NCBI GenBank assembly: GCA_902792005.1
Contig: CADAXW010000013.1
Span: 40,400-104,399, forward strand
Direction: 5' to 3'
DNA from: an uncultured Lachnospiraceae bacterium
GTDB lineage: Bacteria; Bacillota; Clostridia; Lachnospirales; Lachnospiraceae
Length of the DNA stretch: 64,000 nt
Shown: positions 8,085-26,585 of the stretch, one piece after another
How the letters are laid out: every line of letters starts with the position of its first letter
How positions within the stretch are numbered: the first letter of the stretch is position 1
The notes under the pieces: model-generated
What the model was told of the DNA's origin: nothing
The model's database searches: none
The model's input: the letters and a program-made list of their open reading frames with translations, nothing else
Made by a program: the position numbers and the translations under genes

Positions 8085-8105
8085 GCTTGCAAAATTGATA
8101 GAGAT

Positions 8106-8300
8106 AGTTGTACGGTGCCGTTGCAGTACCCGCTTCGGTGAGGCTGCAGAGGTTAAAAGGGAAACAGGTGTGATGCCTGTGCGAACTCGTCACTGTATAT
8201 GCGGAGTGCTGTTGTTGCAGAGTTTTGGCCACTGGGATATCCCGGGAAGGTAGATGACAGCGCGTGGATGCATGAGCCAGGAAACCTGCCGTAGAACTGG
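8106..8300 (+). promoter_or_regulatory. Cobalamin (AdoCbl-type) riboswitch
   Basis: The aptamer shows the conserved core of the cobalamin riboswitch. There is an A-rich GGTTAAAAGGGAA segment near 8151-8163, a paired arm ACAGGTGTGATGCCTGT, GCGAACTCGTCACTG, then CACTGGGA and CCCGGGAAGG near 8230-8250. It ends with the B12 box GAGCCAGGAAACCTGCC (8274-8290). It is followed by a candidate antiterminator hairpin and an intrinsic terminator, so binding of the corrinoid most likely stops transcription into the B12 operon. Confidence 0.95.
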
Positions 8301-8413
8301 TACAGGAATCATATTCCGGATCACGAGTCATTGATCGTACTGTGTAAACAGGGGTGAGGCGCAGCAAGGAGGCGAGGCAGCCCTCCTGTTTGATTGCGGT
8401 TTTTAACTCATTC

Positions 8414-8471: not shown

Positions 8472-10127
8472 ATGAAGAAGAAACTCGTAACAGTCATGTT
8501 GACATCGGCAGTTGCTGCATCCTTACTTGTGGGCTGTGGCAAATCAGATGACAGTACCACCGCAGCACAGGATACTGCAGCAGGTACGGAGCAGGTCACA
8601 GAGGCAAAAACCACTGAGGCCAAGGGTACAGAGGAAAAGAGCACAGGAGCGGAGGATGATGCTGCAAAGGCCAAGGAAGTTGCAGATCTGATCGATGCGA
8701 TCTATGTTCAGGAGAGAACGAATGAGACCGATGAGCTCTGTGCAAAGGCAAAGGCAGCATGGGATGCCCTTACAGACACACAGAAGGAGTTGGTGGAAGG
8801 CGAAGAAGCAGATCCGGATTACTTCGGAAGAGATACAGGAGATGCATCCAAGGATGATCCGTTAAATGCGGACAATATCGGTGAAAAGGAGATCCTGGTG
8901 GTAAGCTTCGGAACATCCTTCAATGACAGCCGTGCCCAGGATATCGGTGGGATCGAGAAGGCCATCGCAGCAGCAAACCCGGACTGGTCCGTAAGAAGAG
9001 CCTTTACGGCACAGATCATCATCAATCATGTACAGGCACGCGACGGTGAGAAGATCGACAACATGGACCAGGCTCTGGAGAGAGCAGTGGCTAACGGAGT
9101 TAAGGAGCTGGTGGTACAGCCCACACATCTCATGCATGGTGCAGAGTATGACGAACTGAAGGAAGCCCTTGCAAAGTATGAAGCAAAGTTTGAAAGCGTT
9201 CGTGTTGCAGAGCCCCTGCTTGGTGAAGTAGGTGCGGATGCAACCGTGATCAATGAGGATAAGAAGGCAGTTGCTGAAGCAGCTGTCGCTGAGGCAGTGA
9301 AGACCTCCGGTTTTGAGAGCCTGGAAAAGGCAGCAGAAGACGGAACCGCATTTGTATTCATGGGACATGGTACAGCACATGTGGCAAAGGTCAGCTACAG
9401 CCAGATGGCAACACAGATGCAGCAGCTGGGCTATAAAAATGTATTCATCGGTACGGTTGAGGGTGAGCCCGAGGATACCGCATGTGACAAGGTGATCGAG
9501 GCAGTCAAGGCTGCCGGCTACAAGAAGGTGATCCTTCGTCCTCTGATGGTTGTAGCAGGAGATCATGCAAACAATGATATGGCAGGAGATGATGATGACT
9601 CCTGGAAGAGCATGTTCATCGCATCCGGCGCATTTGACTCCGTTGATACACAGATCGAAGGTCTGGGCCGGATCGAAGCCATTGAGAAACTGTATGTGGC
9701 TCATACGGCAGCGGCAGTTGAAAGCAAGGGAAGCGAAGGCAGCACAGGAGCGGACGCTTCCGCACTGAAGGACGGAGAGTATCAGGCAAAGTTCACAACC
9801 GACAGCTCCATGTTCAAGGTAAATGAGACCTATAATGATATGGGAACTCTGACGGTAAAGGACGGCAAGATGACGATCCACATCAGTCTGCAGTCGGAAA
9901 ACATCGTAAACCTCTTCCCGGGAACGAAGGATGAGGCTGAAAAAGACGGCGCGGAGCTTCTTCAGCCCTCCAAGGATTCCGTAACCTACGCCGACGGAAC
10001 AACAGAAACCGTTAACGGCTTCGACGTTCCGGTTCCTTATTTGGATAAGGAATTTGATCTGGCACTGATCGGAACCAAGGGAAAATGGTATGATCATAAG
10101 GTAATCGTAGCAACGCCTGAATCATAA
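8472..10127 (+). CDS. cbiK: Surface-anchored CbiK-like sirohydrochlorin cobaltochelatase lipoprotein
   Basis: A 551-residue lipoprotein: signal peptide with lipobox L-L-V-G-C (Cys22), a Thr/Glu-rich linker, a small helical segment (about 65-110), then a complete CbiK domain (about 138-415). The chelatase active site is intact: M-G-H-G with His299 and V-A-G-D-H with His365, matching His145 and His207 of Salmonella CbiK. A further ~120-residue beta-rich domain follows (432-551), with the D-G-x-Y ... T-V-K-D-G-K-M pattern of NEAT-like modules. Normal CbiK is cytosolic and inserts Co2+ into sirohydrochlorin. The export signal places this one outside the membrane, beside a BtuF-like protein and under a B12 riboswitch. 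It may chelate, bind or hand over metal tetrapyrroles rather than serve the cytosolic pathway. Confidence 0.88.
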   Translation: MKKKLVTVMLTSAVAASLLVGCGKSDDSTTAAQDTAAGTEQVTEAKTTEAKGTEEKSTGAEDDAAKAKEVADLIDAIYVQERTNETDELCAKAKAAWDALTDTQKELVEGEEADPDYFGRDTGDASKDDPLNADNIGEKEILVVSFGTSFNDSRAQDIGGIEKAIAAANPDWSVRRAFTAQIIINHVQARDGEKIDNMDQALERAVANGVKELVVQPTHLMHGAEYDELKEALAKYEAKFESVRVAEPLLGEVGADATVINEDKKAVAEAAVAEAVKTSGFESLEKAAEDGTAFVFMGHGTAHVAKVSYSQMATQMQQLGYKNVFIGTVEGEPEDTACDKVIEAVKAAGYKKVILRPLMVVAGDHANNDMAGDDDDSWKSMFIASGAFDSVDTQIEGLGRIEAIEKLYVAHTAAAVESKGSEGSTGADASALKDGEYQAKFTTDSSMFKVNETYNDMGTLTVKDGKMTIHISLQSENIVNLFPGTKDEAEKDGAELLQPSKDSVTYADGTTETVNGFDVPVPYLDKEFDLALIGTKGKWYDHKVIVATPES

Positions 10128-10136
10128 GGATAATCT

Positions 10137-11666
10137 ATGGAAAAAAACGGTTTCGTAAGAAAAACCATTGTATATCTGGTCCTTATTCTGGGACTTCTTC
10201 TGGTAACCTCCTGTGGATCACAGGGGGTTACTTCTGATGAGGAGAAAAATAATGAGATCGTAAAAACCACCTATTCGGTGGAGATTTCTCTGGAGGGCGG
10301 TTCGGGAAAAGCGACGATCCAGTCCCCTGTGACCATTACGGAGATGGACGGACAGCTGTCAGCGAAGCTGGTATGGACCAGCAAGAACTATGATTATATG
10401 ATCGTCGGGGGCGTCCGGTATGAAAACGAAAATGTAGGCGGCGACTCCACCTTCACGGTGGATATCGAGAATACCACGGAGCCTCTCAAGGTGATCGGAG
10501 ATACCACGGCCATGAGTACGCCCCATGAGATCGAATATGTGATCCACTGGGGAGAGAAGGGGGCGCAAAGCCAGGAGGTGGTCCGGGGAACCGGTACGGA
10601 CCGGGCAGCGGTGCAGAAGGCGCTGGAGGCTGCAGGTCTGTCGCGGACCGGAGAGTATGAGCTTTCCTATGCCACCGGATTTCAGATCGATCGATATGGG
10701 GAGATCGACCACATTTCCATCGAGAATTCCGGAGAATATGTGGTGGTTCCCGAGGGGAAGGAAGCACCGGCGGGTCTGCCGGAGGGGACTGTAGTCATGA
10801 AGAAGCCCTTTGACTGCACCTATCTGGTTTCCACAGCTGCTATGGATCTTCTGAATGCCTGCGGGGCACTGGACCGGGTAAAACTCTCCGGGAGCAAGGA
10901 GAGTGACTGGTATATCCCGGAGGCGAAGGAGGCCATGAAGGCAGGGACGCTGGTCTATGCCGGAAAATACAGGGCGCCGGATTATGAACTGCTTCTGGAG
11001 TCCGGCTGCGATCTGGCCATTGAGAATACCATGATCTACCATGAACCGGCGGTGCGCTCCAAGCTGACGGAGCTGGGGATCCCGGTTCTGGTGGAAACCT
11101 CCAGCTACGAAAAACATCCGCTGGGCAGGCTTGAGTGGATCAAACTGTATGGTGTATTATTTGATAAGGAGCAGGAAGCGGAGACCTTCTTCCGGGAACA
11201 GGTAAAGCGGGTGGAACCGCTGCTTCAGGAGAAGAAGGATACCGGGAAGAAGGTGGCCTTCTTCCATGTGACGGCAGGCGGACTCATCAATGTACGGAAG
11301 TCCGGGGATTATATCACCCGGATGATCGAGCTGTCCGGAGGACACTATGTTCCGAACAACACGGGGGAAGGGGAAAATGCGCTTTCCACCATGAATATGC
11401 AGATGGAGGATTTCTACAGAGAGGCCTCCGATGCGGACGTGATCATCATCAACAGCACCATCGGCGGGGAAGTGGCCTCGGTGGATGAGCTGATGGAAAA
11501 GAATGAACTGTTCAGGGACTTTAAGGCGGTGAAGAACGGGAAGGTTTACTGTACAACGCGGGATCTCTTCCAGAAGATCACCGGAATGGCGGAATTCATG
11601 CAGGACCTGAATGATATCTTTAATGATGTGGACAGGGAATATACCTATCTGAAGAAGCTGGAATAA
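10137..11666 (+). CDS. btuF: BtuF-like corrinoid/tetrapyrrole ABC substrate-binding lipoprotein
   Basis: A 509-residue lipoprotein with lipobox V-T-S-C (Cys26). Residues about 45-150 form a beta-rich domain (E-G-G-S-G-K-A-T-I, then N-Y-D-Y-M-I-V) resembling the accessory domain of the preceding chelatase protein. The C-terminal ~290 residues are a class III (BtuF/FhuD/FepB) binding protein fold. The riboswitch and the following BtuC and BtuD genes point to cobalamin, cobinamide or another corrinoid as ligand; heme or cobalt-tetrapyrrole is the alternative. AAGGA precedes the ATG by 8 bases. The end of the gene, including its stop codon, is part of a 14-bp triplicated repeat. Confidence 0.85.
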   Translation: MEKNGFVRKTIVYLVLILGLLLVTSCGSQGVTSDEEKNNEIVKTTYSVEISLEGGSGKATIQSPVTITEMDGQLSAKLVWTSKNYDYMIVGGVRYENENVGGDSTFTVDIENTTEPLKVIGDTTAMSTPHEIEYVIHWGEKGAQSQEVVRGTGTDRAAVQKALEAAGLSRTGEYELSYATGFQIDRYGEIDHISIENSGEYVVVPEGKEAPAGLPEGTVVMKKPFDCTYLVSTAAMDLLNACGALDRVKLSGSKESDWYIPEAKEAMKAGTLVYAGKYRAPDYELLLESGCDLAIENTMIYHEPAVRSKLTELGIPVLVETSSYEKHPLGRLEWIKLYGVLFDKEQEAETFFREQVKRVEPLLQEKKDTGKKVAFFHVTAGGLINVRKSGDYITRMIELSGGHYVPNNTGEGENALSTMNMQMEDFYREASDADVIIINSTIGGEVASVDELMEKNELFRDFKAVKNGKVYCTTRDLFQKITGMAEFMQDLNDIFNDVDREYTYLKKLE

Positions 11667-11693
11667 AGAAGCTGGAATAAAGAAGCTGGAATA
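11652..11693 (+). repeat. Three exact 14-bp tandem repeats over the btuF stop codon
   Basis: AAGAAGCTGGAATA is repeated three times in tandem (11652-11665, 11666-11679, 11680-11693). The first copy encodes the C-terminal K-K-L-E and supplies the start of the stop codon; the other two are untranslated. Confidence 0.95.
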
Positions 11694-11698
11694 AGCAT

Positions 11699-12715
11699 AT
11701 GAAAAAAAGACGGTACATCATTTTCTTTACTGTGACCGTGCTGCTGATCCTGGGACTGATCTGGCTCAGTCTCTATCTCGGAAGTACCCGCCTCGGAGCG
11801 GAGGAGATCCTTCGGATCCTGGGCGGTGACAGGGAAGATACGGCGCACATGAATATTATCATGAATATCAGGCTTCCCAGGGCCATGGCGGCCCTTCTTT
11901 TGGGAGGTGCTCTTGCGCTGTCCGGATATATGCTTCAGACCTTCTTTGGAAATCCCATCGTAGGACCCTTTGTGCTGGGTATTTCCTCAGGCGCCAAGCT
12001 GGCGGTGGCGCTGGTCATGATCCTCTGTCTTTCTGCCGGAAGAGCCATCGGCCTCACGGAAATGGTACTGTCCGCCTTTGTCGGCGCCATGACGGCCATG
12101 GCCTTCGTCCTTCTGATCTCCGTCAAGGTAAAAAGTATGAGCATCCTGGTGGTCTGCGGGATCATGATCGGTTATATCTGTTCCGCCATCACGGACTTTG
12201 TCGTTACATTTGCGGATGACGCAAATATCGTAAATCTGCATAACTGGTCCATGGGCAGTCTGTCCGGGATCAACTGGGATGAGCTCCGGGTGGCGGCGAT
12301 CATCATCGCGGTCTGCCTGATCCTGGCTTTTACACTGATCAAGCCCATGAACGCCTATCGAATGGGGGAGGCCTATGCGCGGAGCGTGGGCGTGAATATC
12401 CGGTGGCTGCGGGTGATGCTGATCCTGGTCTCCAGTCTGCTGGCGGCCTGCGTGACTGCATTTGCCGGACCCATCTCCTTTGTGGGGATCGCGGTGCCGC
12501 ACCTTGCCAGGATCTGTCTTCGGAGTGATGCAGCGCACATCATGATACCGGCCTGCTTTCTGGGAGGCTCGGTGGTGACGCTGCTCTGCGATGCCATCGC
12601 GCGAACGGTTTTCTCACCCATGGAGGTGAGCATCAGTTCTGTGACTGCGGTACTCCTGGTGCCGGTGGTCATCCTCATGCTGGTGAGAAGAAAAGGGAAG
12701 AGCGGGGATGACTGA
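11699..12715 (+). CDS. btuC: FecCD/BtuC-family ABC transporter permease
   Basis: A 338-residue polytopic protein with about nine or ten hydrophobic helices. It has FecCD-family signatures: R-L-P-R-A-M-A-A-L-L-L-G-G near residue 55, G-N-P-I-V-G-P, and the C-terminal G-P-I-S-F-V-G-I-A-V-P-H-L-A-R. The last is the coupling region that contacts the ATPase. Length is typical. It would form the membrane channel for the BtuF-like ligand. The gene starts 33 bases after btuF, just past the tandem repeat, and its end overlaps the next gene by 8 bases. Confidence 0.92.
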   Translation: MKKRRYIIFFTVTVLLILGLIWLSLYLGSTRLGAEEILRILGGDREDTAHMNIIMNIRLPRAMAALLLGGALALSGYMLQTFFGNPIVGPFVLGISSGAKLAVALVMILCLSAGRAIGLTEMVLSAFVGAMTAMAFVLLISVKVKSMSILVVCGIMIGYICSAITDFVVTFADDANIVNLHNWSMGSLSGINWDELRVAAIIIAVCLILAFTLIKPMNAYRMGEAYARSVGVNIRWLRVMLILVSSLLAACVTAFAGPISFVGIAVPHLARICLRSDAAHIMIPACFLGGSVVTLLCDAIARTVFSPMEVSISSVTAVLLVPVVILMLVRRKGKSGDD

Positions 12716-15128
12716 TATGACGGATAGGACTGATATGAAGAAAGAAAAAGGGATCAAAACGGAAAACCTGAATATCGGATATGACTCTGATCTGATCAGA
12801 GATATCACCCTTTCGGTTCAGCCGGGCTCCATCGTTACCCTGATCGGTCCCAACGGCTGTGGGAAGACCACACTTCTGAAGACCCTCACCGGTGCGCTGA
12901 AGGAACGGGGCGGGGTGATCCTGCTGAACGGAGATGACCGGTCGAAGCTTTCGGCAGCGGAAACGGCCAGGCGCCTGTCGGTGATGATGACCTATAAGCT
13001 GAAGCCGTCGCTTATGACCTGCCGGGAGGTGGTGGAGGTGGGACGGTATCCCTACACCGGACGGCTGGGGATCCTGTCCGACGAGGATAAGAGGAAGGTG
13101 AAGGAAGCCATGGAGTGGACAAATGTGTCCGATCTGGCTGACACCTTCTTTCAGAATATCAGTGACGGCCAGAAGCAGCGGGTCCTGCTGGCCCGGGCCA
13201 TTTGTCAGGAGCCGGAGATCCTGGTCCTGGATGAACCCACGTCCTTTTTGGATATCCGTCACAAGCTCGATATCCTTCAGAGGATCGTTACTCTTTGTAA
13301 GGAACGGAAGATCGCAGTTCTGATGTCCCTCCATGAGCTGGAGATCGCACGGAATCTGTCGGATACGGTGGTGGCCATGGGAGAAGGCCGGGTGCAGAGG
13401 ATCGGAACGCCGGAGGAGGTATTCCGGGAGGACTTTATCCGGGAGCTGTATCATCTGGAAGGAATGGATACCGGGATTCTGGGAAGCATGCCGTGGGAGA
13501 CGGAGACCGGGGAGGACGGTGCCGGAGACATGACGGCGGGCAAGCCTGGTGACGTAGAACCCGCTTCCGGGGAGCATTACGCCGGAGCCGCAGGTGGCGA
13601 CAGGAAGGCTGACGGGAAGGCGAAGGTCATTATGATCCAGGGCACCATGTCCAATGCCGGAAAGAGCCTTCTGGCAGCGGGACTCTGCCGGATCTTTTCG
13701 GATGACGGTTTTCGGGTTGCGCCCTTCAAATCCCAGAACATGGCGCTCAATTCCTATATAACGAAGGAAGGCCTGGAAATGGGACGGGCCCAGGTCATGC
13801 AGGCAGAGTGTGCCAGAACAGAGCCCCTTGCAGCCATGAACCCCATCCTGCTCAAGCCCTCGGATGATGTGGGCTCCCAGGTCATCGTGAATGGAAAAGT
13901 GGTCGGGAACATGAAGGCCATGGAGTATTTCCGGCGGAAAAAAGAGTTTGTAAAGGACATAGAGGCGGCCTACAATTCCCTGGCGGAGAATGCGGATATC
14001 ATTGTGGTAGAGGGCGCCGGTTCTCCGGTGGAGCTGAACCTTCTGGAAAATGATGTCGTGAATATGGGGCTGGCTAACATGATCGATGCGCCGGTGCTTC
14101 TGGTGGGAGATATCGACCGGGGCGGGATCTTCGCTCAGCTCATCGGAACCCTGGATCTTTTAGAGGAGCCGGAACGACGCAGAGTGAAGGGCGTTATTGT
14201 GAATAAGTTCAGAGGCGACGGAAGCCTTTTTAAAGACGGCATCCGAATGCTGGAGGAAAAGGGAAACACCCGGGTGGTGGGTGTGGTTCCCTATCTGCAG
14301 CTCAGTCTGGATGATGAGGATTCTCTGTCGGAACGCTTTCAGCGGAAGGAGACGGGGGCCATTGATATTGCTGTGATCCGGTTCGGTCATATATCGAATT
14401 TTACGGACTTTGATCCCTTTGATCAGCTGGAGGATGTATCCATCCGATATGTTTCCTCTGTTTCCGAGCTGGGGACGCCGGATCTGATCATTCTTCCGGG
14501 CACGAAGAATACCATTGCCGATCTTCAGTGGATGAAGGAGCAGGGGCTTGCGAAGGCAGTCACGGAAATGTCGGAGCAGGGAACCTCGGTTCTTGGGATC
14601 TGCGGCGGCTATCAGATGCTGGGACGAAGCATCGAGGATCCCGATAACGTGGAAGGCGGCGGAAAGGAACAGGGCCTTGGCCTGCTTCCTGTGGATACCG
14701 TGCTGGGAACGGAAAAGACACGGACACATTTTACAGGGAAGGTGACTGGGGCGGAAGGCATCCTGGAGGCCCTTGCCGGAACGCCGGTGGAGGGATATGA
14801 GATCCATATGGGAAGGACCGAACCCTGCGAGGATCTGACGGAATTCACGTCGGAGCAGACGGGCTTCTGCCGTAAGAATATATATGGGACCTATCTCCAC
14901 GGCTTCTTTGACGGAAGACAGGTTTTGGAGAAGGTGATCCGGTGTGTGGCAGCGGCAGGAGGAAAGAACTGGGAGCCGGGAGAGATACTGGATCATAGGG
15001 ACTTTAAGGAGAATCAGTATGACATGCTGGCGAGGGAACTTCGGGCATGTCTGGATATGAACTATATTTACGGGATCCTGGGGATTGACCGAGGTCAGAT
15101 GGAATCAGAAAAAGAGAACGTAAGATGA
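12708..15128 (+). CDS. cbiP: Fusion of BtuD-type ABC ATPase and cobyric acid synthase (CbiP)
   Basis: An 806-residue single open frame. Residues about 15-255 are an ABC ATPase: Walker A G-P-N-G-C-G-K-T-T (47-55), signature I-S-D-G-Q (151-155), Walker B I-L-V-L-D-E-P (171-177), switch His209. Residues about 305-800 are cobyric acid synthase: an N-terminal ATP domain (Q-G-T-M-S-N-A-G-K-S, 311-320) and a class I glutamine amidotransferase domain with Cys632 in L-G-I-C-G-G-Y-Q and His731 in T-Y-L-H-G. The two are joined by a ~45-residue Gly/Ala/Glu-rich linker, with no internal ribosome binding site visible. The protein would energise BtuC and amidate four corrin side chains. This joins uptake and biosynthesis in one polypeptide. 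Confidence 0.92.
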   Translation: MTDMTDRTDMKKEKGIKTENLNIGYDSDLIRDITLSVQPGSIVTLIGPNGCGKTTLLKTLTGALKERGGVILLNGDDRSKLSAAETARRLSVMMTYKLKPSLMTCREVVEVGRYPYTGRLGILSDEDKRKVKEAMEWTNVSDLADTFFQNISDGQKQRVLLARAICQEPEILVLDEPTSFLDIRHKLDILQRIVTLCKERKIAVLMSLHELEIARNLSDTVVAMGEGRVQRIGTPEEVFREDFIRELYHLEGMDTGILGSMPWETETGEDGAGDMTAGKPGDVEPASGEHYAGAAGGDRKADGKAKVIMIQGTMSNAGKSLLAAGLCRIFSDDGFRVAPFKSQNMALNSYITKEGLEMGRAQVMQAECARTEPLAAMNPILLKPSDDVGSQVIVNGKVVGNMKAMEYFRRKKEFVKDIEAAYNSLAENADIIVVEGAGSPVELNLLENDVVNMGLANMIDAPVLLVGDIDRGGIFAQLIGTLDLLEEPERRRVKGVIVNKFRGDGSLFKDGIRMLEEKGNTRVVGVVPYLQLSLDDEDSLSERFQRKETGAIDIAVIRFGHISNFTDFDPFDQLEDVSIRYVSSVSELGTPDLIILPGTKNTIADLQWMKEQGLAKAVTEMSEQGTSVLGICGGYQMLGRSIEDPDNVEGGGKEQGLGLLPVDTVLGTEKTRTHFTGKVTGAEGILEALAGTPVEGYEIHMGRTEPCEDLTEFTSEQTGFCRKNIYGTYLHGFFDGRQVLEKVIRCVAAAGGKNWEPGEILDHRDFKENQYDMLARELRACLDMNYIYGILGIDRGQMESEKENVR

Positions 15129-16213
15129 CAAAAGAAGAACTGTATTCAATGAAAACAGAAGCGCCCGACAGGGATGTGGAGGTGCTTGCGAAGCAAAGGT
15201 GGGACAGCCTTGTGAAGCCGATTGACGGGCTCGGCGCATTTGAGGAGATGATCTGCAGGATCGCCGGGATCCAGGGGAAGACTTCTCCGACCCTTTCCCG
15301 GAAGGGCCTGATCATCATGTGTGCGGATAACGGCGTGGTGGAGGAAGGCGTGACGCAGACCGGTCAGTCGGTTACCTATGATGTGGCGGAGATGATGGGG
15401 GAGCGGCGGAGCTCCGTAGGCAGGATGACCATGCATTATCCGCTGGACATTTTCCCCTATGATGTGGGGATCAATACAAAGGATACGCCGAAGGGCGTGA
15501 TCAACCGAAAGATCCGGCAGGGTACCGCGAATCTTCTGAAGGGTCCTGCCATGACAGAGCAGGAGTGCCTTGCTGCCATCGGCGTCGGGCTGGAGGCCGT
15601 GCGGGACTGTCACTCCAAAGGCTACGACATCATCGCCACCGGAGAGATGGGGATCGGAAATACCACCTCCAGTGCGGCACTGCTTTCCGCACTTACGGGA
15701 GAAAAACCGGAGCGCTTCACCGGAAGGGGATCCGGTCTTCCGGATGCTGGACTGGAACGAAAGAAGCAGGTGATCCGGGATGCCGTAAGGCTGCATCGCG
15801 GAGCAAAGGCCGGTACACCGGTGAAAACGGCGGAGGAGACACTGCAGGTCCTGACTGCTCTTGGAGGGCTGGACATTGCGGCCCTTGTGGGTGTTTTTCT
15901 CGGAGGCGCGGTCTGCCGCATTCCGATTGTGATCGACGGCCTGATCAGCGCGGTTTCGGCCTATACTGCGGAGCTTTTCCTGCCGGGCTGCCGGGACTAT
16001 ATGATCGCCTCCCATTCAGGAAAAGAGAAGGGAACGGAGCGGATCCTGACGGAGCTGTCGCTCACACCGGTGCTTCAGGCTGATATGGCACTGGGCGAGG
16101 GAACGGGCGCGGTTTTGCTTTTTCCCATGCTGGATATGGCGCTGTCTCTTTATCTGGACGGCACCACATTTCAGGATACGGATATCGCGAAGTATGAGAG
16201 GTTCGGTAAATGA
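15125..16213 (+). CDS. cobT: Nicotinate-nucleotide--dimethylbenzimidazole phosphoribosyltransferase
   Basis: A 362-residue enzyme making alpha-ribazole 5'-phosphate, the activated lower ligand, from nicotinate mononucleotide and a base. Typical motifs are present: C-A-D-N-G-V-V-E-E-G-V (about 61-71), G-E-M-G-I-G-N-T-T near residue 175, and the C-terminal L-G-E-G-T-G-A with the catalytic Glu. Full length. It overlaps the cbiP fusion by ATGA and the following cobU by 4 bases, so the genes are translationally coupled within the B12 operon. Confidence 0.95.
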   Translation: MTKEELYSMKTEAPDRDVEVLAKQRWDSLVKPIDGLGAFEEMICRIAGIQGKTSPTLSRKGLIIMCADNGVVEEGVTQTGQSVTYDVAEMMGERRSSVGRMTMHYPLDIFPYDVGINTKDTPKGVINRKIRQGTANLLKGPAMTEQECLAAIGVGLEAVRDCHSKGYDIIATGEMGIGNTTSSAALLSALTGEKPERFTGRGSGLPDAGLERKKQVIRDAVRLHRGAKAGTPVKTAEETLQVLTALGGLDIAALVGVFLGGAVCRIPIVIDGLISAVSAYTAELFLPGCRDYMIASHSGKEKGTERILTELSLTPVLQADMALGEGTGAVLLFPMLDMALSLYLDGTTFQDTDIAKYERFGK

Positions 16214-16746
16214 TCACTTTGATTATTGGTACGAATAACAGCGGCAAGTCGGAGCTGGCGGAGAAACTGGCCGTGCAGCGGGGAACCGGAAGAAAATACT
16301 ATCTGGCAACCATGCAGCTCTGCGATGACGCCAGCCGGGCCCGGGCGGAGAAGCATAGAAGAATGCGGGCCGGAAAAGGCTTTCTCACCATTGAGAAGGA
16401 ATGCCGGATCAGAGAAGTGCTTTCCTCCATAGAAGACGCGGAGAAGGCATTGGTGCTCCTGGAATGCGTTTCAAATCTTGTGGGAAATGAACTCCATTCG
16501 GATCCGAAGTGGCTGAGGTCGTTTGGTTCTGGTGAGGCACCGGAGGATACATTTACGGAAATGATTGTGAGTGACATCAAGGCCGTGGCGGACAGGGTCC
16601 GTGATCTGATCCTTGTTACGAATGAATATGATAAGGATGATGCGGGATACGACCGGCAGACCAGGATCTACGTAGAGCTGCTGAGCCGGGTAAACGAAAG
16701 GCTCCGTGACGCAGCGGATGAGGTCATCGATTTACGGAAGGATTGA
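16210..16746 (+). CDS. cobU: Adenosylcobinamide kinase / adenosylcobinamide-phosphate guanylyltransferase
   Basis: A 178-residue bifunctional nucleotide-loop assembly enzyme. It phosphorylates adenosylcobinamide and then forms adenosylcobinamide-GDP. The P-loop is G-T-N-N-S-G-K-S (7-14), somewhat diverged from the usual G-G-A-R-S-G-K-S. The guanylylated histidine corresponds to His49 in E-K-H-R-R-M-R. Length is usual. It is coupled by 4-base overlaps to cobT upstream and cobS downstream. The P-loop divergence (Asn-Asn) is noteworthy but keeps the Gly-Lys-Ser core. Confidence 0.9.
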   Translation: MITLIIGTNNSGKSELAEKLAVQRGTGRKYYLATMQLCDDASRARAEKHRRMRAGKGFLTIEKECRIREVLSSIEDAEKALVLLECVSNLVGNELHSDPKWLRSFGSGEAPEDTFTEMIVSDIKAVADRVRDLILVTNEYDKDDAGYDRQTRIYVELLSRVNERLRDAADEVIDLRKD

Positions 16747-17528
16747 GACGCTTGAAGATACTAAGATGGTTAGGAATTACATTTTCCCTGTTCAGCCGGA
16801 TCCCGGTTCCCAGGTTTAAGTGGAGGGAGGAGGAAATGCGCTACAGCATGGCCTTTCTTCCGCTGGTGGGAGGGATCATTGGGCTTGGAACGTATCTGAT
16901 AAGCGGCGTGAATCCCTTTGCGGAGCTCCCCGTGGCAGTCAGGATCCTGCTCACGCTGGCGCTCTCCCTGCTGATCACCGGAGGCTTCCATGTGGACGGC
17001 TTTATGGATACGGAGGATGCCATGCATTCCTTCGCACCGACCGAGAAAAAGCTGGAGATCCTGAAGGATCCCCATATCGGGGCCTTTGCCGTGATCGCTC
17101 TTGTAAAATGGCTGCTGATCTACGCTGCCGCCATCACTGCGATCCTGCTGAATGAACGGACCGACGAAAGGATCCTTGTGATCCTGGGTCTGACCTTTGT
17201 GATCAGCAGAAGTCTTCTGGGACTCACCTCTTTCTTCTTTCCGAAGGCAAAGAAGGAGGGGATGCTGTATGAGGAAACGAAAACGAAGCCCCGGGTGGTG
17301 GTGATCCTTCTTTCCATCCAGCTGGCAGCGGCGGTGGGGGTTTCCCTTTGGATGGATCTCCTTTCGGGAAGCATGGTTGTGCTTCTCTACACGCTGCATA
17401 CCATCTATTACCGGTATACGGTTTATAAGAATTTCGGAGGGGTTACGGGAGATACGGCAGGATACTTTCTTACCACCGGCGAGATCCTGGCAGCCCTTGT
17501 TCTGGCAGGGACTCTTTATCTGAAGTGA
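16743..17528 (+). CDS. cobS: Adenosylcobinamide-GDP ribazoletransferase (cobalamin synthase)
   Basis: A 261-residue membrane enzyme that joins adenosylcobinamide-GDP with alpha-ribazole or its phosphate, the last step of cobalamin assembly. It shows the family N-terminus (F-S-R-I-P-V-P), the acidic metal motif G-G-F-H-V-D-G-F-M-D-T-E-D-A (about 79-92), and six or seven hydrophobic segments. The likely start is the TTG at 16743, which overlaps the cobU stop. The mobile substrate and membrane location fit the known CobS/CbiB membrane complex. Confidence 0.93.
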   Translation: MRRLKILRWLGITFSLFSRIPVPRFKWREEEMRYSMAFLPLVGGIIGLGTYLISGVNPFAELPVAVRILLTLALSLLITGGFHVDGFMDTEDAMHSFAPTEKKLEILKDPHIGAFAVIALVKWLLIYAAAITAILLNERTDERILVILGLTFVISRSLLGLTSFFFPKAKKEGMLYEETKTKPRVVVILLSIQLAAAVGVSLWMDLLSGSMVVLLYTLHTIYYRYTVYKNFGGVTGDTAGYFLTTGEILAALVLAGTLYLK

Positions 17529-17536
17529 GGCATGTT

Positions 17537-18154
17537 ATGGCAAAAAAACAGGTTGTTCTGATCCGTCATGGTCAGATCCCCGGAAATGTAGAGAAACGGT
17601 ATATCGGGTGCAGAACGGATGAATCGCTTACGGAACACGGGATCGAAGAGATCCGGGCAAGACGGGCGGAAGCAGGAAAGCTGCTTTCCGGAGGTGTGGT
17701 CCGGATCTGCTGCAGTCCCATGAAGCGGGCGGTTGAAACGGTATACTACCTGTTTGACGAAAAGGCCCCGACGATCCTTACAGATCTCAGGGAGATGGAT
17801 TTTGGAAACTTTGAGGGAAAGAATTATGAAGATCTTTCCGGAGATAAAGACTATCAAAGTTGGATCAACAGCGGGGGAACAAAGGATTTCCCCGGGGGAG
17901 AAAAGAGAGACGCGTTTATCCATCGGTCCATGCAGGGCTTCCGTGCGGCGCTGGGAGACATAGAGATATCGGAAAGAGTTATCATCCTTTGTCACGGTGG
18001 CACCATCATGGCGATCATGAGTGCTCTCACCGGGAAGGATACTTACGATTTTATGGTTGGAAATCTGGAGGGCTACATCCTGGATCTGGAGATGAATGAT
18101 GAAGGAATACATGTTATTTCATATAATCGCCTTGTTTTTGGGCGTTCTGCTTGA
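17537..18154 (+). CDS. cobC: Histidine phosphatase, alpha-ribazole phosphatase-like
   Basis: A 205-residue histidine phosphatase superfamily protein. The catalytic R-H-G motif is in V-V-L-I-R-H-G-Q near residues 6-13 and the second catalytic His is in I-L-C-H-G-G-T near residue 155. It would remove the 5'-phosphate of alpha-ribazole phosphate or of cobalamin 5'-phosphate. I chose ATG 17537 because GAGG lies upstream; an in-frame GTG at 17525 overlaps the cobS stop and is possible. Its end overlaps cbiB by 59 bases. Enzymes of this family can have broader substrates, but the operon context favours CobC. Confidence 0.87.
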   Translation: MAKKQVVLIRHGQIPGNVEKRYIGCRTDESLTEHGIEEIRARRAEAGKLLSGGVVRICCSPMKRAVETVYYLFDEKAPTILTDLREMDFGNFEGKNYEDLSGDKDYQSWINSGGTKDFPGGEKRDAFIHRSMQGFRAALGDIEISERVIILCHGGTIMAIMSALTGKDTYDFMVGNLEGYILDLEMNDEGIHVISYNRLVFGRSA

Positions 18155-19097
18155 CCAGATCGTGGGAGATCCGCATTCACTTCCGCATCCGGTGCGGGGC
18201 ATCGGAAGACTTATTGCCTGGCTGGAGGGAAGACTCCTGGGAGCCCGCGGTTCGAAGCAGACGGAGCGAAGACGGGGCGCACTGCTTTGGTGGCTGGTGA
18301 TCCTGATCGTAGGAACCGTTACGGCGCTGATCCTCGTTCTGGCATATCAATCCCTTGTTTATCTGGGCCTTTTCGTTGAAATGATACTTGTATGCTATAT
18401 TCTGGCGGCAAGAAGTCTTTGCAGGGAAAGCATGGCGGTACAAAGAAGGCTTATGAACCGGGATGTTCCCGGGGCAAGGCACGCTCTTTCCATGATCGTG
18501 GGAAGAGATACGGAGCCTCTTTCCGAGGAGGAGATCGTAAAGGCTGCAGTGGAGACGGTGGCTGAAAATACCTCGGACGGGGTTATCGCCCCGCTTCTTT
18601 ATACCATCATTGGCGGACCGGTACTGGGGCTTTGCTATAAGGCGGTAAACACCATGGATTCCATGCTGGGATACCAAAATGACAGATACAGGAACTTTGG
18701 ACGGTTTGCGGCGAAGGCAGATGATCTTCTGAACTATATCCCATCCAGACTCAGTGCACTGGCAATGATCTTCGGATGCAGGATACTTGGGCTCTTCTCG
18801 GGACATTTTAATGGGAAGGAAGCACACAGGATCTGGGTTCGGGACAGGAGAAATCACAGCTCGCCGAATTCGGCCCAGACAGAAAGCGTGACAGCGGGAG
18901 CTCTGGGGCTCCGGCTGGGAGGAACCCATACCTATCAGGGCATTCCGGTGGAGAAGCCCTATATCGGGGATGAGCGAAGAAAGGCGGAACCGGAGGATAT
19001 CCGGCGGTCAAACCGGCTGATGTTTATGACGGAGGCGGTGGTTTTCGTCCTGTGCATGGCGGTGATGATCACGGTCCTCTGTTGTATGTGGGTTTAG
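18096..19097 (+). CDS. cbiB: Adenosylcobinamide-phosphate synthase
   Basis: A 333-residue integral membrane protein that attaches (R)-1-amino-2-propanol O-2-phosphate to adenosylcobyric acid. Family signatures are clear: L-L-D-Q-I-V-G-D-P and L-P-H-P-V-R-G-I-G near the N-terminus, V-A-E-N-T-S-D-G-V-I-A-P in the middle, and M-D-S-M-L-G-Y followed by F-G-R-F-A-A-K-A-D-D. Four to five membrane helices. It overlaps cobC by 59 bases, unusually long. Its aminopropanol phosphate donor would come from the next gene, CobD. Confidence 0.94.
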   Translation: MMKEYMLFHIIALFLGVLLDQIVGDPHSLPHPVRGIGRLIAWLEGRLLGARGSKQTERRRGALLWWLVILIVGTVTALILVLAYQSLVYLGLFVEMILVCYILAARSLCRESMAVQRRLMNRDVPGARHALSMIVGRDTEPLSEEEIVKAAVETVAENTSDGVIAPLLYTIIGGPVLGLCYKAVNTMDSMLGYQNDRYRNFGRFAAKADDLLNYIPSRLSALAMIFGCRILGLFSGHFNGKEAHRIWVRDRRNHSSPNSAQTESVTAGALGLRLGGTHTYQGIPVEKPYIGDERRKAEPEDIRRSNRLMFMTEAVVFVLCMAVMITVLCCMWV

Positions 19098-19116
19098 ATG
19101 AAGGAGTTGGAAGGTA

Positions 19117-20166
19117 ATGCAGCACGGCGGAGATATCTACAGGAATAAGGTGAAGATGGATCATTCGGTGAATCTGAATCCTCTGGGAATCCCGGCGGAG
19201 GTGCTTTCAGCGGTCCGAAGCTCACTGGACAGGGCAGGGGTTTATCCTGACCTTCTGCAGGGAGCCGTGCGGGAAGAGATCGCTGCATCCGTCGGCGGAT
19301 CATCAACTTCTGTACTGGCTGGAAGCGGAGCCTCCGAGCTGCTTATGGGAGCGGTTCGCGTCATTATGCCAAAGAAGGCGCTGTTGTTTGAACCCTGCTT
19401 TTCCGGTTATCAGCATACGCTCACGTCGGTAGGTTGTGAGATATGTCATCACATTCTGACGGAGGAGAATGGCTTCCGTCTGACGGCGGAGGATCTGGAG
19501 GCTGTGACGCCGGACCTGGATCTGATCCTGCTTTCGGATCCGGTGAATCCCACAGGACAGAGCCTCGAGGATACATTTATCGAAGAATTACTGGAAAAGG
19601 CAGAGAAGAATCATATCTCCGTGATCCTGGATGAGAGTTTTCTTATGATGTCGGACAAGGCCGGTCAGGGTCACTCGGATCACGGCTATGAACGGGTGCA
19701 GCGGTATGAGGAGCTTTGGGTCCTTCGTTCCATGACGAAGCTCCTGGCCATGCCGGGGATCCGGATGGGATATGTCATTTCCGGGAAGGAGAACATCCGC
19801 CGGCTGACGGGGCAGCTTCCGGAGTGGAATCTCTCAATTCCTGCGGAGGCGGGGATCCGGGCCGGGCTGAAGCTTCTTCAGGATGAGGCGTACATCGGAC
19901 ATATGCTTTCTCTGATCCGGGAGGAACGAGAATATCTGTCCCAGGGCCTCGGAGCGCTTGGTTTTACGGTCTATGACAGCCAGACATCCTTTCTTCTTTT
20001 CCGGGGACCGGAGGATCTGTATGAGAGGCTGCTTGCCCGGGGGATCCTGATCCGGGACTGCAGTGATTTCCGGGGCCTCGGGAAGGGGTACTACCGGATC
20101 GCGGTGAAGAAGCATGAGGAAAATGTGGCGCTTCTTCGGGCCTTAGGAAGAATGATGGAGGAATGA
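19117..20166 (+). CDS. cobD: Threonine-phosphate decarboxylase (PLP aminotransferase fold)
   Basis: A 349-residue class I/II aminotransferase-fold enzyme. The N-terminal H-G-G-D-I-Y and N-L-N-P-L-G motifs are typical of CobD. The PLP-binding lysine is Lys208 in S-M-T-K-L-L-A-M-P-G-I-R, with N-P-T-G near residue 145. It decarboxylates L-threonine O-3-phosphate to aminopropanol phosphate for CbiB. An AAGGAG site precedes the ATG. The gene end lies in an 11-bp repeat (GGAGGAATGA at 20157-20166 and 20168-20177) that duplicates its stop codon and supplies the ribosome binding site for cbiC. Confidence 0.92.
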   Translation: MQHGGDIYRNKVKMDHSVNLNPLGIPAEVLSAVRSSLDRAGVYPDLLQGAVREEIAASVGGSSTSVLAGSGASELLMGAVRVIMPKKALLFEPCFSGYQHTLTSVGCEICHHILTEENGFRLTAEDLEAVTPDLDLILLSDPVNPTGQSLEDTFIEELLEKAEKNHISVILDESFLMMSDKAGQGHSDHGYERVQRYEELWVLRSMTKLLAMPGIRMGYVISGKENIRRLTGQLPEWNLSIPAEAGIRAGLKLLQDEAYIGHMLSLIREEREYLSQGLGALGFTVYDSQTSFLLFRGPEDLYERLLARGILIRDCSDFRGLGKGYYRIAVKKHEENVALLRALGRMMEE

Positions 20167-20180
20167 CGGAGGAATGATGG

Positions 20181-20807
20181 ATGAATTTTGAAACAGTCAA
20201 ACCGGCGGAGATCGAAAAACGAAGCTTTGAGATCATCACCCAGGAGCTGGAAGCAGCCGGCATCCGGCTGGATGAGACTTTGGCGCCGGTGATCAAGCGC
20301 TGTATCCACACCTCAGCCGATTTCGAGTATGCAGAGACACTGGCCTTCTCGGAGGGGGCCGTGGACCGGATGAAGGAACTGATCCGACAGGGCGCCACCA
20401 TCGTGACGGATACAAATATGGCGCTGGCAGGGATCAACAAAAAGAAGCTGGCCTCCTTCGGCGGCAGGTGCATCTGCTTCATGGCAGAGGAGGATGTGGC
20501 AAAGGAAGCCACGGAGCGGGGCATCACCCGGGCAGCCGTATCCATGGAGCGGGCCGCAGCTCTGGGAGAGAAGGTGATCTTTGCCATCGGAAATGCGCCC
20601 ACGGCCCTGATCCGGCTCCATGAAATGATGCAGGAGGGGACTTACACTCCCGCATTCATCATCGGTGTTCCGGTGGGCTTTGTAAATGTGGTCTGGGCGA
20701 AGGAGCTCTTCCTCGGAACGTCGGTTCCGTACATCATCAACCGGGGAAGAAAGGGCGGAAGCACCATTGCGGCGGCCATCTGCAATGCGGTGCTGTATCA
20801 AATGTGA
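20181..20807 (+). CDS. cbiC: Cobalt-precorrin-8 (precorrin-8X) methylmutase
   Basis: A 208-residue enzyme that moves the C-11 methyl group to C-12, giving cobyrinic acid (hydrogenobyrinate in the aerobic route). The catalytic histidine is His43 in R-C-I-H-T-S-A-D-F-E-Y, at the same position as in CobH. Later motifs T-D-T-N-M-A-L-A-G-I and G-N-A-P-T-A-L are also typical. Normal length. The ATG is preceded by GGAGG contained in the repeat at the cobD stop. Confidence 0.95.
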   Translation: MNFETVKPAEIEKRSFEIITQELEAAGIRLDETLAPVIKRCIHTSADFEYAETLAFSEGAVDRMKELIRQGATIVTDTNMALAGINKKKLASFGGRCICFMAEEDVAKEATERGITRAAVSMERAAALGEKVIFAIGNAPTALIRLHEMMQEGTYTPAFIIGVPVGFVNVVWAKELFLGTSVPYIINRGRKGGSTIAAAICNAVLYQM

Positions 20808-20834
20808 TCGGAGCTTTGAAAAAAGGAGATCCGG

Positions 20835-21953
20835 ATGAAAAAGGGATTTACCACCGGAAGCTGTGCGGCTGCGGCAGGAAAGGCAGCGGCGTACATGCTC
20901 CTGGGAGGAAAAAGAATAGATAAGATCGAGATCGAGACGCCGGCGGGGATCCGCTACTGTCCGAAGCTGGAGGAAATCGATATTGGGGAGGACTACGTCC
21001 GCTGTGCAGTTCGAAAGGAATCCGGGGATGATCCGGATATCACGAACGGATCCCTGATCGTGGTGAAGGTGAGTCATGGCAGGGAAGGCCAAAGCCTTCG
21101 GGAGATACGGATCGAGGGCGGAGAAGGCGTTGGCAGAGTGACCCGTCCGGGACTGGATCAGCCGGTGGGAGCCGCAGCCATCAATTCAGTTCCGAGGCAG
21201 ATGATCGAGCAGGAGGTGCGGCAGGTCATGGAGCTCTTTGATCATGAGGGAACTCTGGAGGTTGTGGTTTCGGTTCCCGGCGGAAGGGAGCTGGCAGAGA
21301 AGACCTTCAATCCCAGACTGGGGATCGAAGGCGGGATCTCCATCATCGGAACCTCGGGGATCGTGGAACCCATGAGCCAGAAGGCGCTTCTTGATTCCAT
21401 CCGGGTGGAGCTGCGTCAGAAGAAAGCCATGGGAAGCACTGTGGCAGTGATCACCCCCGGGAATTACGGACTGGCCTTCATGAAGGAAGTCTACGGCTTC
21501 GATCTGGATCAGGCAGTGAAATGTTCCAACTTCATCGGGGACACCATCGATATGGCAGTGGAGCTTGGCTTTCAGAAGCTGCTTCTCTGCGGCCACATCG
21601 GAAAGCTTGTGAAGCTTGCCGGCGGGATCATGAATACCCATTCCAGAGAAGCGGACTGCAGGATGGAGCTTATGGCGGCAGCGGCCGTAAGGTGCGGCGC
21701 TTCCGAAGCGGCAGTGCGGGAGATCCTGGACTGTGTATCCACAGAAGAAGCGGTAGCGGTCTATGAAAGAGAAGGACTCACCGGACGTGCCTTTGCGTAT
21801 CTCACGGAGCGCGGCGCATTTTATCTGGACCGGCGGGGAAAGGGAGAGATCGCCATTCAGTACATGATGTATTCCAATCAGTACGGCCTGCTGGGAAAGA
21901 CGGGGGAGGCAGAGGCTTTTCTGATGGAAGCGAATAGTAAAGACGAAGAATAA
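20835..21953 (+). CDS. cbiD: Cobalt-precorrin-5B C1-methyltransferase
   Basis: A 372-residue protein. The N-terminus F-T-T-G-S-C-A-A-A-A-G-K-A is the CbiD hallmark, and G-G-T/G-G-R motifs and T-P-G-N-Y-G near residue 205 also match. It adds the C-1 methyl group during anaerobic corrin ring synthesis; its presence marks the oxygen-independent pathway. A GGAGAT site lies before the ATG. Full length, with no visible defects. Confidence 0.95.
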   Translation: MKKGFTTGSCAAAAGKAAAYMLLGGKRIDKIEIETPAGIRYCPKLEEIDIGEDYVRCAVRKESGDDPDITNGSLIVVKVSHGREGQSLREIRIEGGEGVGRVTRPGLDQPVGAAAINSVPRQMIEQEVRQVMELFDHEGTLEVVVSVPGGRELAEKTFNPRLGIEGGISIIGTSGIVEPMSQKALLDSIRVELRQKKAMGSTVAVITPGNYGLAFMKEVYGFDLDQAVKCSNFIGDTIDMAVELGFQKLLLCGHIGKLVKLAGGIMNTHSREADCRMELMAAAAVRCGASEAAVREILDCVSTEEAVAVYEREGLTGRAFAYLTERGAFYLDRRGKGEIAIQYMMYSNQYGLLGKTGEAEAFLMEANSKDEE

Positions 21954-21972
21954 AAGCGAAAGGAAACAGGGC

Positions 21973-22734: not shown

Positions 22735-22739
22735 ATACT

Positions 22740-23732: not shown

Positions 23733-23769
23733 AATGGAATATGAAATGGGATATGATAAGGGATATGAT

Positions 23770-26510: not shown

Positions 26511-26531
26511 CTTTCGGAAAAATCGGATAAG

Positions 26532-26585
26532 GGAACATCGGATGTGGAAACATCGGATGAAGGAGCATCAGATGAAGGAGATACG
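26532..26585 (+). repeat. Degenerate 15-bp tandem repeat before cbiA
   Basis: About three and a half units of a GGAACATCGGATGTG-like 15-mer, each carrying an ATG and a GGA. The repeat creates several in-frame ATG codons and AAGGAG motifs at the start of cbiA. Confidence 0.8.

Follow-up and report, generated by a model that had tools for sequence, protein, structure and literature searches.

An exported CbiK-type chelatase with NEAT-fold domains at the head of a Lachnospiraceae cobalamin operon: a candidate system for surface tetrapyrrole salvage

The exported CbiK module and its operon

The stretch of DNA analyzed here, referred to as the window, comprises 64,000 nucleotides of contig CADAXW010000013.1 (positions 40,400 to 104,399) in assembly GCA_902792005.1 of an uncultured Lachnospiraceae bacterium (genome G000). 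It carries a cobalamin operon that begins with a riboswitch and with genes for a lipoprotein homologous to the cobaltochelatase CbiK, a lipoprotein substrate-binding protein (SBP) and the components of a BtuCD-like transporter (Table 1). The signal-bearing CbiK, two NEAT-fold domains, the FecB/IsdE-type SBP and BtuCD constitute a conserved ordered module. An earlier note on this DNA, based on the sequence alone, proposed a salvage route in which a tetrapyrrole is metallated or bound at the cell surface and then taken up.

The position of CbiK as the first gene under a B12 riboswitch, its lipobox at Cys22 and its intact residues His299 and His365, all described in the earlier note, were confirmed. 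The Pfam CbiK domain matches residues 139-416 (E 5.3e-71, 239.4 bits at a cut-off of 26.2). Both histidines, which the earlier note and we ourselves take to be catalytic, are invariant in an alignment of 21 sequences, in which Cys22 reaches a conservation of at least 90%; every one of the 19 genus copies of CbiK with a readable N-terminus, the window copy among them, has a lipobox. The closest solved chains are 9b86, titled “Heme-binding protein FetB” (9.8e-40), the cobaltochelatase 1qgo (2.5e-37) and the chelatase 2xvx (4.7e-29). By profile scores, the window protein is assigned to the CbiK family and not to the strict equivalog. In five other loci (L096, L098, L245, L247 and L254), the N-termini of the exported CbiK resemble Sec signals of the cleavable kind and lack the cysteine of a lipobox, thus lipidation of CbiK is not universal.

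The extra C-terminal beta-rich domain of CbiK mentioned in the earlier note (residues ~425-551, NEAT-A) and the N-terminal domain of the SBP (residues ~33-146, NEAT-B) both gave confident all-beta AlphaFold2 models, with pLDDT of 93.4 and 87.3, respectively. In the Foldseek comparison of NEAT-A with the PDB, the top four matches are all NEAT or Shp-type heme binders, and the first of them, the NEAT structure 4myp (E 1.3e-4, TM score 0.57), alone passes E 0.001. For NEAT-B, the 43 best matches are all NEAT or Shp, with 11 of them below E 0.001 and TM scores up to 0.70; the best one is the IsdC-heme structure 2o6p (E 2.4e-4, TM score 0.68). On these models, both accessory domains are predicted to adopt, in divergent form, the NEAT fold familiar from heme-binding domains, which rules out a wall-anchor reading and answers the structural comparison proposed in the earlier note. 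Support at the sequence level appears weak and agrees in part. At E<=0.1, the Pfam NEAT profile matches NEAT-A in 38 of 61 aligned members (best 1.8e-5) and NEAT-B in 33 of 57 (best 4.2e-7); in the window itself the gathering score is not reached, NEAT-A scoring 18.7 of 32.8 bits and NEAT-B giving no match at that threshold. The four best matches of a NEAT-A profile among the PDB sequences (E 0.02-0.1) are chains titled as NEAT or IsdX proteins; the corresponding search with a NEAT-B profile gave no NEAT chain. A comparison by hhalign indicates a distant kinship between the two domains (probability 95%). In the last strand, His118 of NEAT-A and His96 and Tyr100 of NEAT-B are invariant, and these residues may have a role in ligand binding.

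The SBP has a lipobox (VTSC) ending at Cys26, which is followed by NEAT-B and the periplasmic-binding-protein fold. The earlier note described it as a BtuF-like lipoprotein with a domain similar to that of CbiK. The lipoprotein, the fold and the related domain all stand; the name BtuF is a functional guess, since the best NCBIfam relative, the heme SBP IsdE, scores far under its cut-off (35.8 vs 298.65 bits). The SBP, FecCD permease and ATPase of a type II importer (BtuFCD/FecBCD) are thus all present, as judged by the Peripla_BP_2, FecCD and ABC_tran domains. BtuC and BtuD follow the SBP, as was noted earlier, and the fourth gene proved to be a fusion of BtuD with the cobyrate synthase CbiP (CobQ); in some sister loci (L050, L051) BtuD and CbiP are separate genes.

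The module order CbiK, NEAT-A, NEAT-B, SBP, BtuC, BtuD was observed in all 20 loci of the genus (the window and L038-L056), although the gene boundaries shift: NEAT-A and NEAT-B form a gene of their own in 12 loci, are fused to the SBP in three, and are divided between CbiK and the SBP in five, including the window. In another family, a single 917-aa lipoprotein (L109) comprises CbiK, NEAT-A, NEAT-B and SBP. Among all loci that were read, the multi-module polypeptides are CbiK-A (65), B-SBP (53), A-B (35), CbiK-A-B (16), A-B-SBP (7) and CbiK-A-B-SBP (1), and the exceptional orders are A-CbiK (6), CbiK-A-CbiK (1) and A-CbiK-A (1), these polypeptide counts including loci fetched twice under different names. 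Of 80 named loci, 53 carry the SBP and BtuC on the CbiK strand within 9 kb; the SBP precedes CbiK in four loci of the full set. The link between CbiK and the BtuFCD genes is a strong one, given that they stay neighbors while gene boundaries shift and fusions occur. A riboswitch is located upstream on the same strand in all 19 genus loci with upstream sequence (the window and 18 sister loci), at a distance of no more than 333 bases from the predicted start. Recurrence of the riboswitch, the exported CbiK and the module order in sister species argues for more than chance.

Table 1. Features of the cobalamin operon in the window
Feature	Position	Strand	Evidence
Cobalamin riboswitch heading the operon	8096-8307	+	Rfam RF00174, 92.2 bits (gathering score 31.5), E 1.4e-21
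Exported CbiK lipoprotein with C-terminal NEAT-A, 551 aa	8472-10127	+	Open reading frame (ORF); Pfam CbiK
Signal peptide and lipobox LVGC ending at Cys22	8472-8537	+	Read from sequence
CbiK chelatase core with His299 and His365	8886-9719	+	Pfam match; alignment
Predicted NEAT-A, CbiK residues ~425-551	9744-10124	+	AlphaFold2 and Foldseek
BtuF/IsdE-like SBP lipoprotein with N-terminal NEAT-B, 509 aa	10137-11666	+	ORF; Pfam Peripla_BP_2
Predicted NEAT-B, SBP residues ~33-146	10233-10574	+	AlphaFold2 and Foldseek
Periplasmic-binding-protein fold, SBP residues 231-475	10827-11561	+	Pfam Peripla_BP_2 2.7e-29
BtuC-like permease, FecCD family, 338 aa	11699-12715	+	Pfam FecCD 3.2e-78
BtuD ATPase-CbiP/CobQ cobyrate synthase fusion, 806 aa	12708-15128	+	Pfam ABC_tran 4e-31, GATase_3 9.3e-53
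cobT, cobU, cobS, cobC, cbiB, cobD, cbiC, cbiD, cbiF, cbiG, cbiH, cbiJ-E-T, cbiA	15125-28050	+	Pfam; NCBIfam for cbiF, cbiH and cbiJ-E-T

The genes after BtuD-CbiP are closely spaced on the same strand. By Pfam and NCBIfam profiles, CbiL is the only gene of the corrin and nucleotide-loop pathways without a match in the window. A second CbiJ-CbiE-CbiT fusion, additional to the window copy, is encoded elsewhere in G000 (contig C28, L092 5313-7490). The earlier note does not mention these genes, and the position of the exported chelatase at the head of a nearly complete anaerobic cobalamin operon alters the interpretation of the chelatase.

Early pathway enzymes and CbiK types across genomes

The exported CbiK is the only recognized cobaltochelatase found in G000. 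The survey for other chelatases suggested in the earlier note revealed no second CbiK in the genome and no separate CbiX, the CbiX matches falling only inside the exported CbiK gene. HemC was not found and no CobA match exceeded the cut-off in this genome, HemA, HemL, HemB and HemD not having been searched for; the CobA matches below the cut-off include CbiF and CbiH of the window. A profile search of G000 did not find CbiM either. The window bacterium, a gut-type organism, appears to lack two early enzymes for the B12 ring. HemC and CobA are also absent in the single-contig genomes G002 and G005, and gaps in metagenome-assembled genomes (MAGs) alone are therefore an insufficient explanation.

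The occurrence of these enzymes was compared with the type of CbiK in 80 genomes hand-picked from the genus of the window and among the listed CbiK genomes. HemC and above-cut-off CobA were positive in an identical set of 34 genomes. HemC is present in none of the 20 genus genomes with exported CbiK, nine of the 30 exported-only genomes elsewhere, all eight genomes with both forms, all 17 cytosolic-only genomes, and none of the five genomes with no CbiK or a short form. Of the 75 genomes with a classified CbiK, 41 of the 50 exported-only ones have neither HemC nor CobA, as against none of the 25 with cytosolic CbiK; by genus, a HemC-less member is found in 14 of 16 exported-only genera vs 0 of 17 cytosolic-containing ones. 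Fisher’s test gave 1e-12 when genomes were counted and 1.5e-7 when genera were, values that were computed after reclassification and correct for phylogeny no further than the genus count.

CbiK classes were assigned by reading N-termini, as ORF length, used first to pick controls, proved unreliable. Three genomes first taken as controls (G383, G298 and G342) became exported-only, and G311 and G314 were reassigned to the class with both forms, with the exported copy of G311 deduced from L174, which lies in a genome with identical coordinates; before that, G383 was the sole HemC-less “control”. The second CbiK of G369, G371 and G389 is still classed by length, the N-terminus of the second copy of G150 is ambiguous, and the short divergent CbiK that G005, G008 and G033 also possess was not counted as cytosolic. 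The HemC/CobA test did not extend to named carriers of exported CbiK in families f11, f17 and f18 (e.g. L063, L080, L006).

Two contrasts within genera accord with the overall pattern. G409 has neither HemC and CobA nor a second CbiK and retains a CbiL-containing cbi cluster together with the exported CbiK, whereas its congeners G213, G309, G369 and G371 each have HemC, CobA and two CbiKs. In another genus, G383 has an exported CbiK and no HemC vs G415, in which CbiK is of the CbiO-CbiK type and HemC is present. Since the absence of HemC and CobA tracks the exported-only state of CbiK, the cell probably obtains the ring from its surroundings, at roughly the level of sirohydrochlorin.

Exported CbiK is also linked to the corrin pathway. 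Among genomes G000-G036, it was found in 20 of 21 CbiD-bearing genomes, counting G035, where a contig end cuts the N-terminus, and in none of 16 CbiD-lacking ones. The exception, G019, is 85% complete and no CbiK was found in it. Of the CbiD-less genomes, 15 have a short CbiK relative (62-129 bits, as compared with 241-288 bits for exported forms and 155 for the cut G035) and one has none. The four short forms that were read (L027-L030) have no signal peptide and have lost the GDH motif; another short relative (L094 7179-7955) adjoins a TrkA-like gene and comes from a genome with the exported form as well. When 146 CbiK cores were placed in a tree, built by a quick method and with many weak forks, the 93 exported forms all grouped, along with five cytosolic ones, in a clade of 98 rows (SH-aLRT 92). 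Named carriers include records of Butyrivibrio, Roseburia, Blautia and Sellimonas, many of which are MAGs.

Candidate hidden enzymes and markers were tried and rejected. For CbiX, 22 PF01903 matches were listed in 41 genus genomes, of which 21 fall within CbiK ORFs and one stays under the cut-off. For a SirC/Met8-type chelatase, PF13241 matches occur in all 41 genomes and are mostly weak; strong ones were found only in G017 and G061, with a weaker one in G036. Two of the four matches in G000, including the strongest, lie in one ORF, presumably TrkA-like by its N-terminus, and the other two, on contigs C3 and C36, were left aside. CbiM, not found in 19 of 20 exported-CbiK genomes of the genus, gave a mixed picture as a clean marker, being over the cut-off in 1/20 of these genomes, 11/30 exported-only genomes elsewhere and 14/17 cytosolic-only genomes. 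The possibility that the cell exports a ring of its own for metallation, as a “cobaltophore”, was rejected for the genus, where HemC and above-cut-off CobA were not found in 25 of 25 genomes.

A proposed salvage route and its alternatives

We consider it likely that the system serves tetrapyrrole salvage as such. With somewhat less assurance, we favor, as the simplest account, a surface salvage controlled by the B12 riboswitch, in which cobalt would be inserted into captured sirohydrochlorin and the product relayed by NEAT domains to BtuFCD. The proposal of the earlier note is thus supported by the NEAT folds, the linkage to the transporter and the genome survey, and needs narrowing to a ring of the precorrin-2/sirohydrochlorin level that feeds a nearly complete synthesis pathway. 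A macrocycle of this level is needed because CbiC, CbiD, CbiE, CbiF, CbiG, CbiH, CbiJ, CbiT, CbiA and CbiP are kept while precorrin-2 synthesis appears to be missing; protoporphyrin or uroporphyrinogen is insufficient for the corrin pathway without CobA.

According to the proposed route, the cell cannot make precorrin-2 and would import the macrocycle at the sirohydrochlorin stage from other organisms, which may release sirohydrochlorin itself or siroheme that then loses its metal. The NEAT domains would capture the ring and pass it onward, similar to heme in the Isd systems, and the CbiK core would put Co(II) into it outside the membrane. Cobalt-sirohydrochlorin would then reach the cytosol by way of the SBP and BtuCD, join the pathway at CbiL/CbiH and be completed to cobalamin, which would shut off the entire operon. 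For the most novel version of this scheme, in which cobalt insertion, the first committed step of the anaerobic B12 pathway, occurs outside the cell on scavenged sirohydrochlorin (or as a swap of iron for cobalt in siroheme) and the cobalt form is relayed by the NEAT domains to BtuFCD, the chances appear evenly balanced. If cobalt is inserted outside and the cobalt-ring is imported, cobalt would enter together with the ring.

A number of observations weigh against this reading. Besides the selection of the 80 genomes by hand, the CbiK classes were revised, by N-terminal sequence only, after the HemC/CobA results were known. HemC and CobA are retained in nine of 50 exported-only genomes, six of them in genus g34, where only the exported CbiK was found and the ring therefore seems to be made inside. 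All 25 tested genomes of the window genus are without HemC and over-cut-off CobA, including four that lack CbiD; this genus-wide absence regardless of CbiD means that the association derives from comparisons among genera and within a few genera other than this one. In a second sample, CobA was found in 19 and missing in 31 of 50 named exported-type genomes, at least four of which (G434, G459, G464, G468) repeat the first sample and which were not screened for cytosolic CbiK. CobA is also missing in six of 29 further genomes with cytosolic CbiK, five of them in genus g128; G235 had been removed from these controls as identical to G449 of the exported list, with no other trimming, and the controls G187 and G210 have a second CbiK that was left unread. 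The window CbiK misses the NCBIfam equivalog for sirohydrochlorin cobaltochelatase (190.5 vs 400 bits), and 27 of the 80 named loci show no SBP with BtuC on the CbiK strand at a distance of up to 9 kb, because of a contig end in some and a solitary CbiK in others. G000, from which absences are drawn, is 92% complete. Its contig C86 (4.7 kb) encodes a CbiL-like ORF of 177 aa (L093 1700-2233) with a central gap relative to the profile, which could be a degenerate gene, a genuine variant or an assembly fault.

Among the alternatives, an ordinary uptake of finished or late corrinoids (cobalamin or cobinamide) by BtuFCD, with the exported CbiK and the NEAT domains only binding and performing no chemistry, would agree with the B12 riboswitch control, the homology of BtuC and BtuD and the nucleotide-loop genes within the operon. 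We regard it as unlikely, as it leaves unexplained the retention of a corrin-ring operon without HemC and CobA, the co-occurrence of exported CbiK with CbiD and the invariance of both histidines.

Genus g128 bears on another alternative, import of a metal-free ring with metallation inside by an unrecognized chelatase, the exported CbiK again only binding. Three of its genomes (G119, G203, G217) have a single CbiK, which is cytosolic, and in two loci (L209 7954-10830 and L218 8869-10976) genes for a lipoprotein and a BtuCD-like transporter are found next to the cytosolic CbiK, in divergent orientation. The lack of over-cut-off CobA in the five genomes, together with a transporter beside cytosolic CbiK, suggests that salvage with internal metallation may exist. 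For the window system, it is very unlikely given that G000 has no separate CbiX or second CbiK, that CbiM is missing from nearly all genus carriers, and that neither histidine varies among the exported proteins.

Acquisition of heme or heme iron, in which NEAT domains capture heme and the CbiK-like protein removes iron as proposed for IhtB of P. gingivalis, draws on the NEAT folds, on FetB as the closest solved structure, on IsdE as the best, though far under cut-off, NCBIfam relative of the SBP, and on the description of IhtB as a CbiK-like heme-binding lipoprotein in PMC10913741. It conflicts with the riboswitch in 19 of 19 genus loci and with the location at the head of a cobalamin operon and the co-occurrence with CbiD, and is highly improbable. 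In addition, protoporphyrin is chemically unable to feed corrin synthesis. Equally improbable is the reading of the exported CbiK as a normal cytosolic cobaltochelatase that works prior to export or in a portion that is never exported, with lipidation and transporter neighbors incidental: it would suit the sole CbiK of G000 and the six g34 genomes, but not the lipobox in all 19 readable genus copies, the fusions to NEAT and SBP modules, including the single CbiK-A-B-SBP lipoprotein, or the lack of HemC and CobA in G000 nonetheless.

Related systems and variant forms

Surface salvage of a sirohydrochlorin-level ring is less isolated an idea than the earlier note stated, as there are precedents in P. 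gingivalis and Desulfovibrio. We take FetB and IhtB of P. gingivalis to be the same protein, and this organism was reportedly the subject of the study of Roper et al. (2000). The IhtB/FetB system, with IhtA, IhtC, IhtD and IhtE, likewise combines a CbiK-homologous lipoprotein with an SBP, a permease and an ATPase, and this gene set is found in the window; IhtB is there termed a putative heme-binding lipoprotein and the system hardly characterized (PMC10913741). IhtB and FetB are also discussed in PMC13227078 and in a 2026 review; according to the latter, FetB inserts manganese into protoporphyrin IX, and porphyrins collect on the outer-membrane surface (PMC13402209). As appears to be the case in the window genome, the steps to precorrin-2 are missing in P. 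gingivalis, according to PMC6461909. The P. gingivalis system differs in being classed under heme and iron and in having a TonB receptor, and the parts of these sources at hand do not mention a B12 riboswitch or NEAT domains. On the side of the window, the nearest named relatives are Lachnospiraceae.

The window CbiK homolog 2xvx is presumably the D. vulgaris protein. Desulfovibrio has an exported, periplasmic CbiK (CbiK-P); in contrast to what is predicted for the window bacterium, it makes its own tetrapyrroles and has a cytosolic CbiK as well. The exported Desulfovibrio CbiK is not known to carry NEAT domains or to have a settled substrate. Similar to the window, a single B12-element stands over cbiK-cbiL and btuCDF in Desulfovibrio, as reported in PMC545781.

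The domain set also resembles the Isd relay (IsdA/IsdC/IsdX1 to IsdE/F) in its NEAT-fold domains, lipoprotein SBP and FecCD permease, a likeness by fold match. In that relay, heme is handed along, and the NEAT domains pass the tetrapyrrole to the lipoprotein SBP. Unlike Isd, the window NEAT domains are fused to a chelatase and an SBP under B12 control, and they are highly divergent (8-19% identity over the NEAT/Shp matches listed).

Tetrapyrrole precursor salvagers, as defined by Shelton et al. (PMC6461909), have full corrin and nucleotide-loop pathways and no early tetrapyrrole genes. They include a precorrin-2-type class, which PMC8123684 restates; the absence of HemC and CobA that characterizes this class is found in G000, G002 and G005. 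Shelton et al. tested dependence on 5-aminolevulinic acid (ALA), and the part of their paper at hand names no importer or surface chelatase (PMC6461909). Among open-licence full texts, we found no paper joining a cobaltochelatase with a lipoprotein, a riboswitch and BtuF, or with a NEAT domain; among the matches listed for the open-licence literature on sirohydrochlorin and precorrin-2 salvage, no title indicates such a system, and the accessible part of PMC7689651 contains nothing on exported CbiK.

An exported CbiK with an ABC importer is therefore already known; what is new here is the proposed NEAT relay, the setting in a B12 operon and the connection to an apparent lack of precorrin-2 synthesis. 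Linking a surface chelatase, a NEAT relay and BtuFCD offers a specific and testable answer to the question of how precorrin-2-type salvagers feed. If the proposal is true, it would provide the uptake route for such salvagers in Lachnospiraceae, and FetB/IhtB of P. gingivalis may, by homology, be recast as part of the B12 pathway of that organism. FetB, CbiK-P of Desulfovibrio and other exported CbiK homologs would gain a common rationale, sirohydrochlorin or siroheme would be a currency traded among gut microbes, and bacteria counted as B12 “producers” by their cbi genes may rely on neighbors.

Cobalt supply is coupled to CbiK in CbiMNQO systems with CbiO-CbiK fusions of related genomes (L100, L105, L111), which differ in being cytosolic; all six such genomes in the 80-genome test have HemC and CobA, and the window genome, unlike CbiMNQO genomes, has no CbiM match. 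The cytosolic CbiK is attached to the C-terminus of a CbiO-like ATPase, a name assigned by us from context, in L100, L105, L111, L194, L195 and L196, and is fused to CbiH in L197.

Exported forms vary as well. Three polypeptides of 889-1090 aa (L148 10001-12670, L170 8606-11479 and L172 867-4139) reach about twice the usual CbiK-core score and apparently contain tandem CbiK copies with NEAT-A. A 288-aa exported CbiK lipoprotein (L262 4547-5413) stands alone, its 10-kb stretch being free of NEAT, SBP and BtuC modules, in genome G224, which additionally carries a cytosolic CbiK. Finally, a 404-aa CbiK of G201 (L269 3673-4887) has a match to the accessory, NEAT-like domain, and a signal peptide is not evident at its start or in the printed upstream frames.

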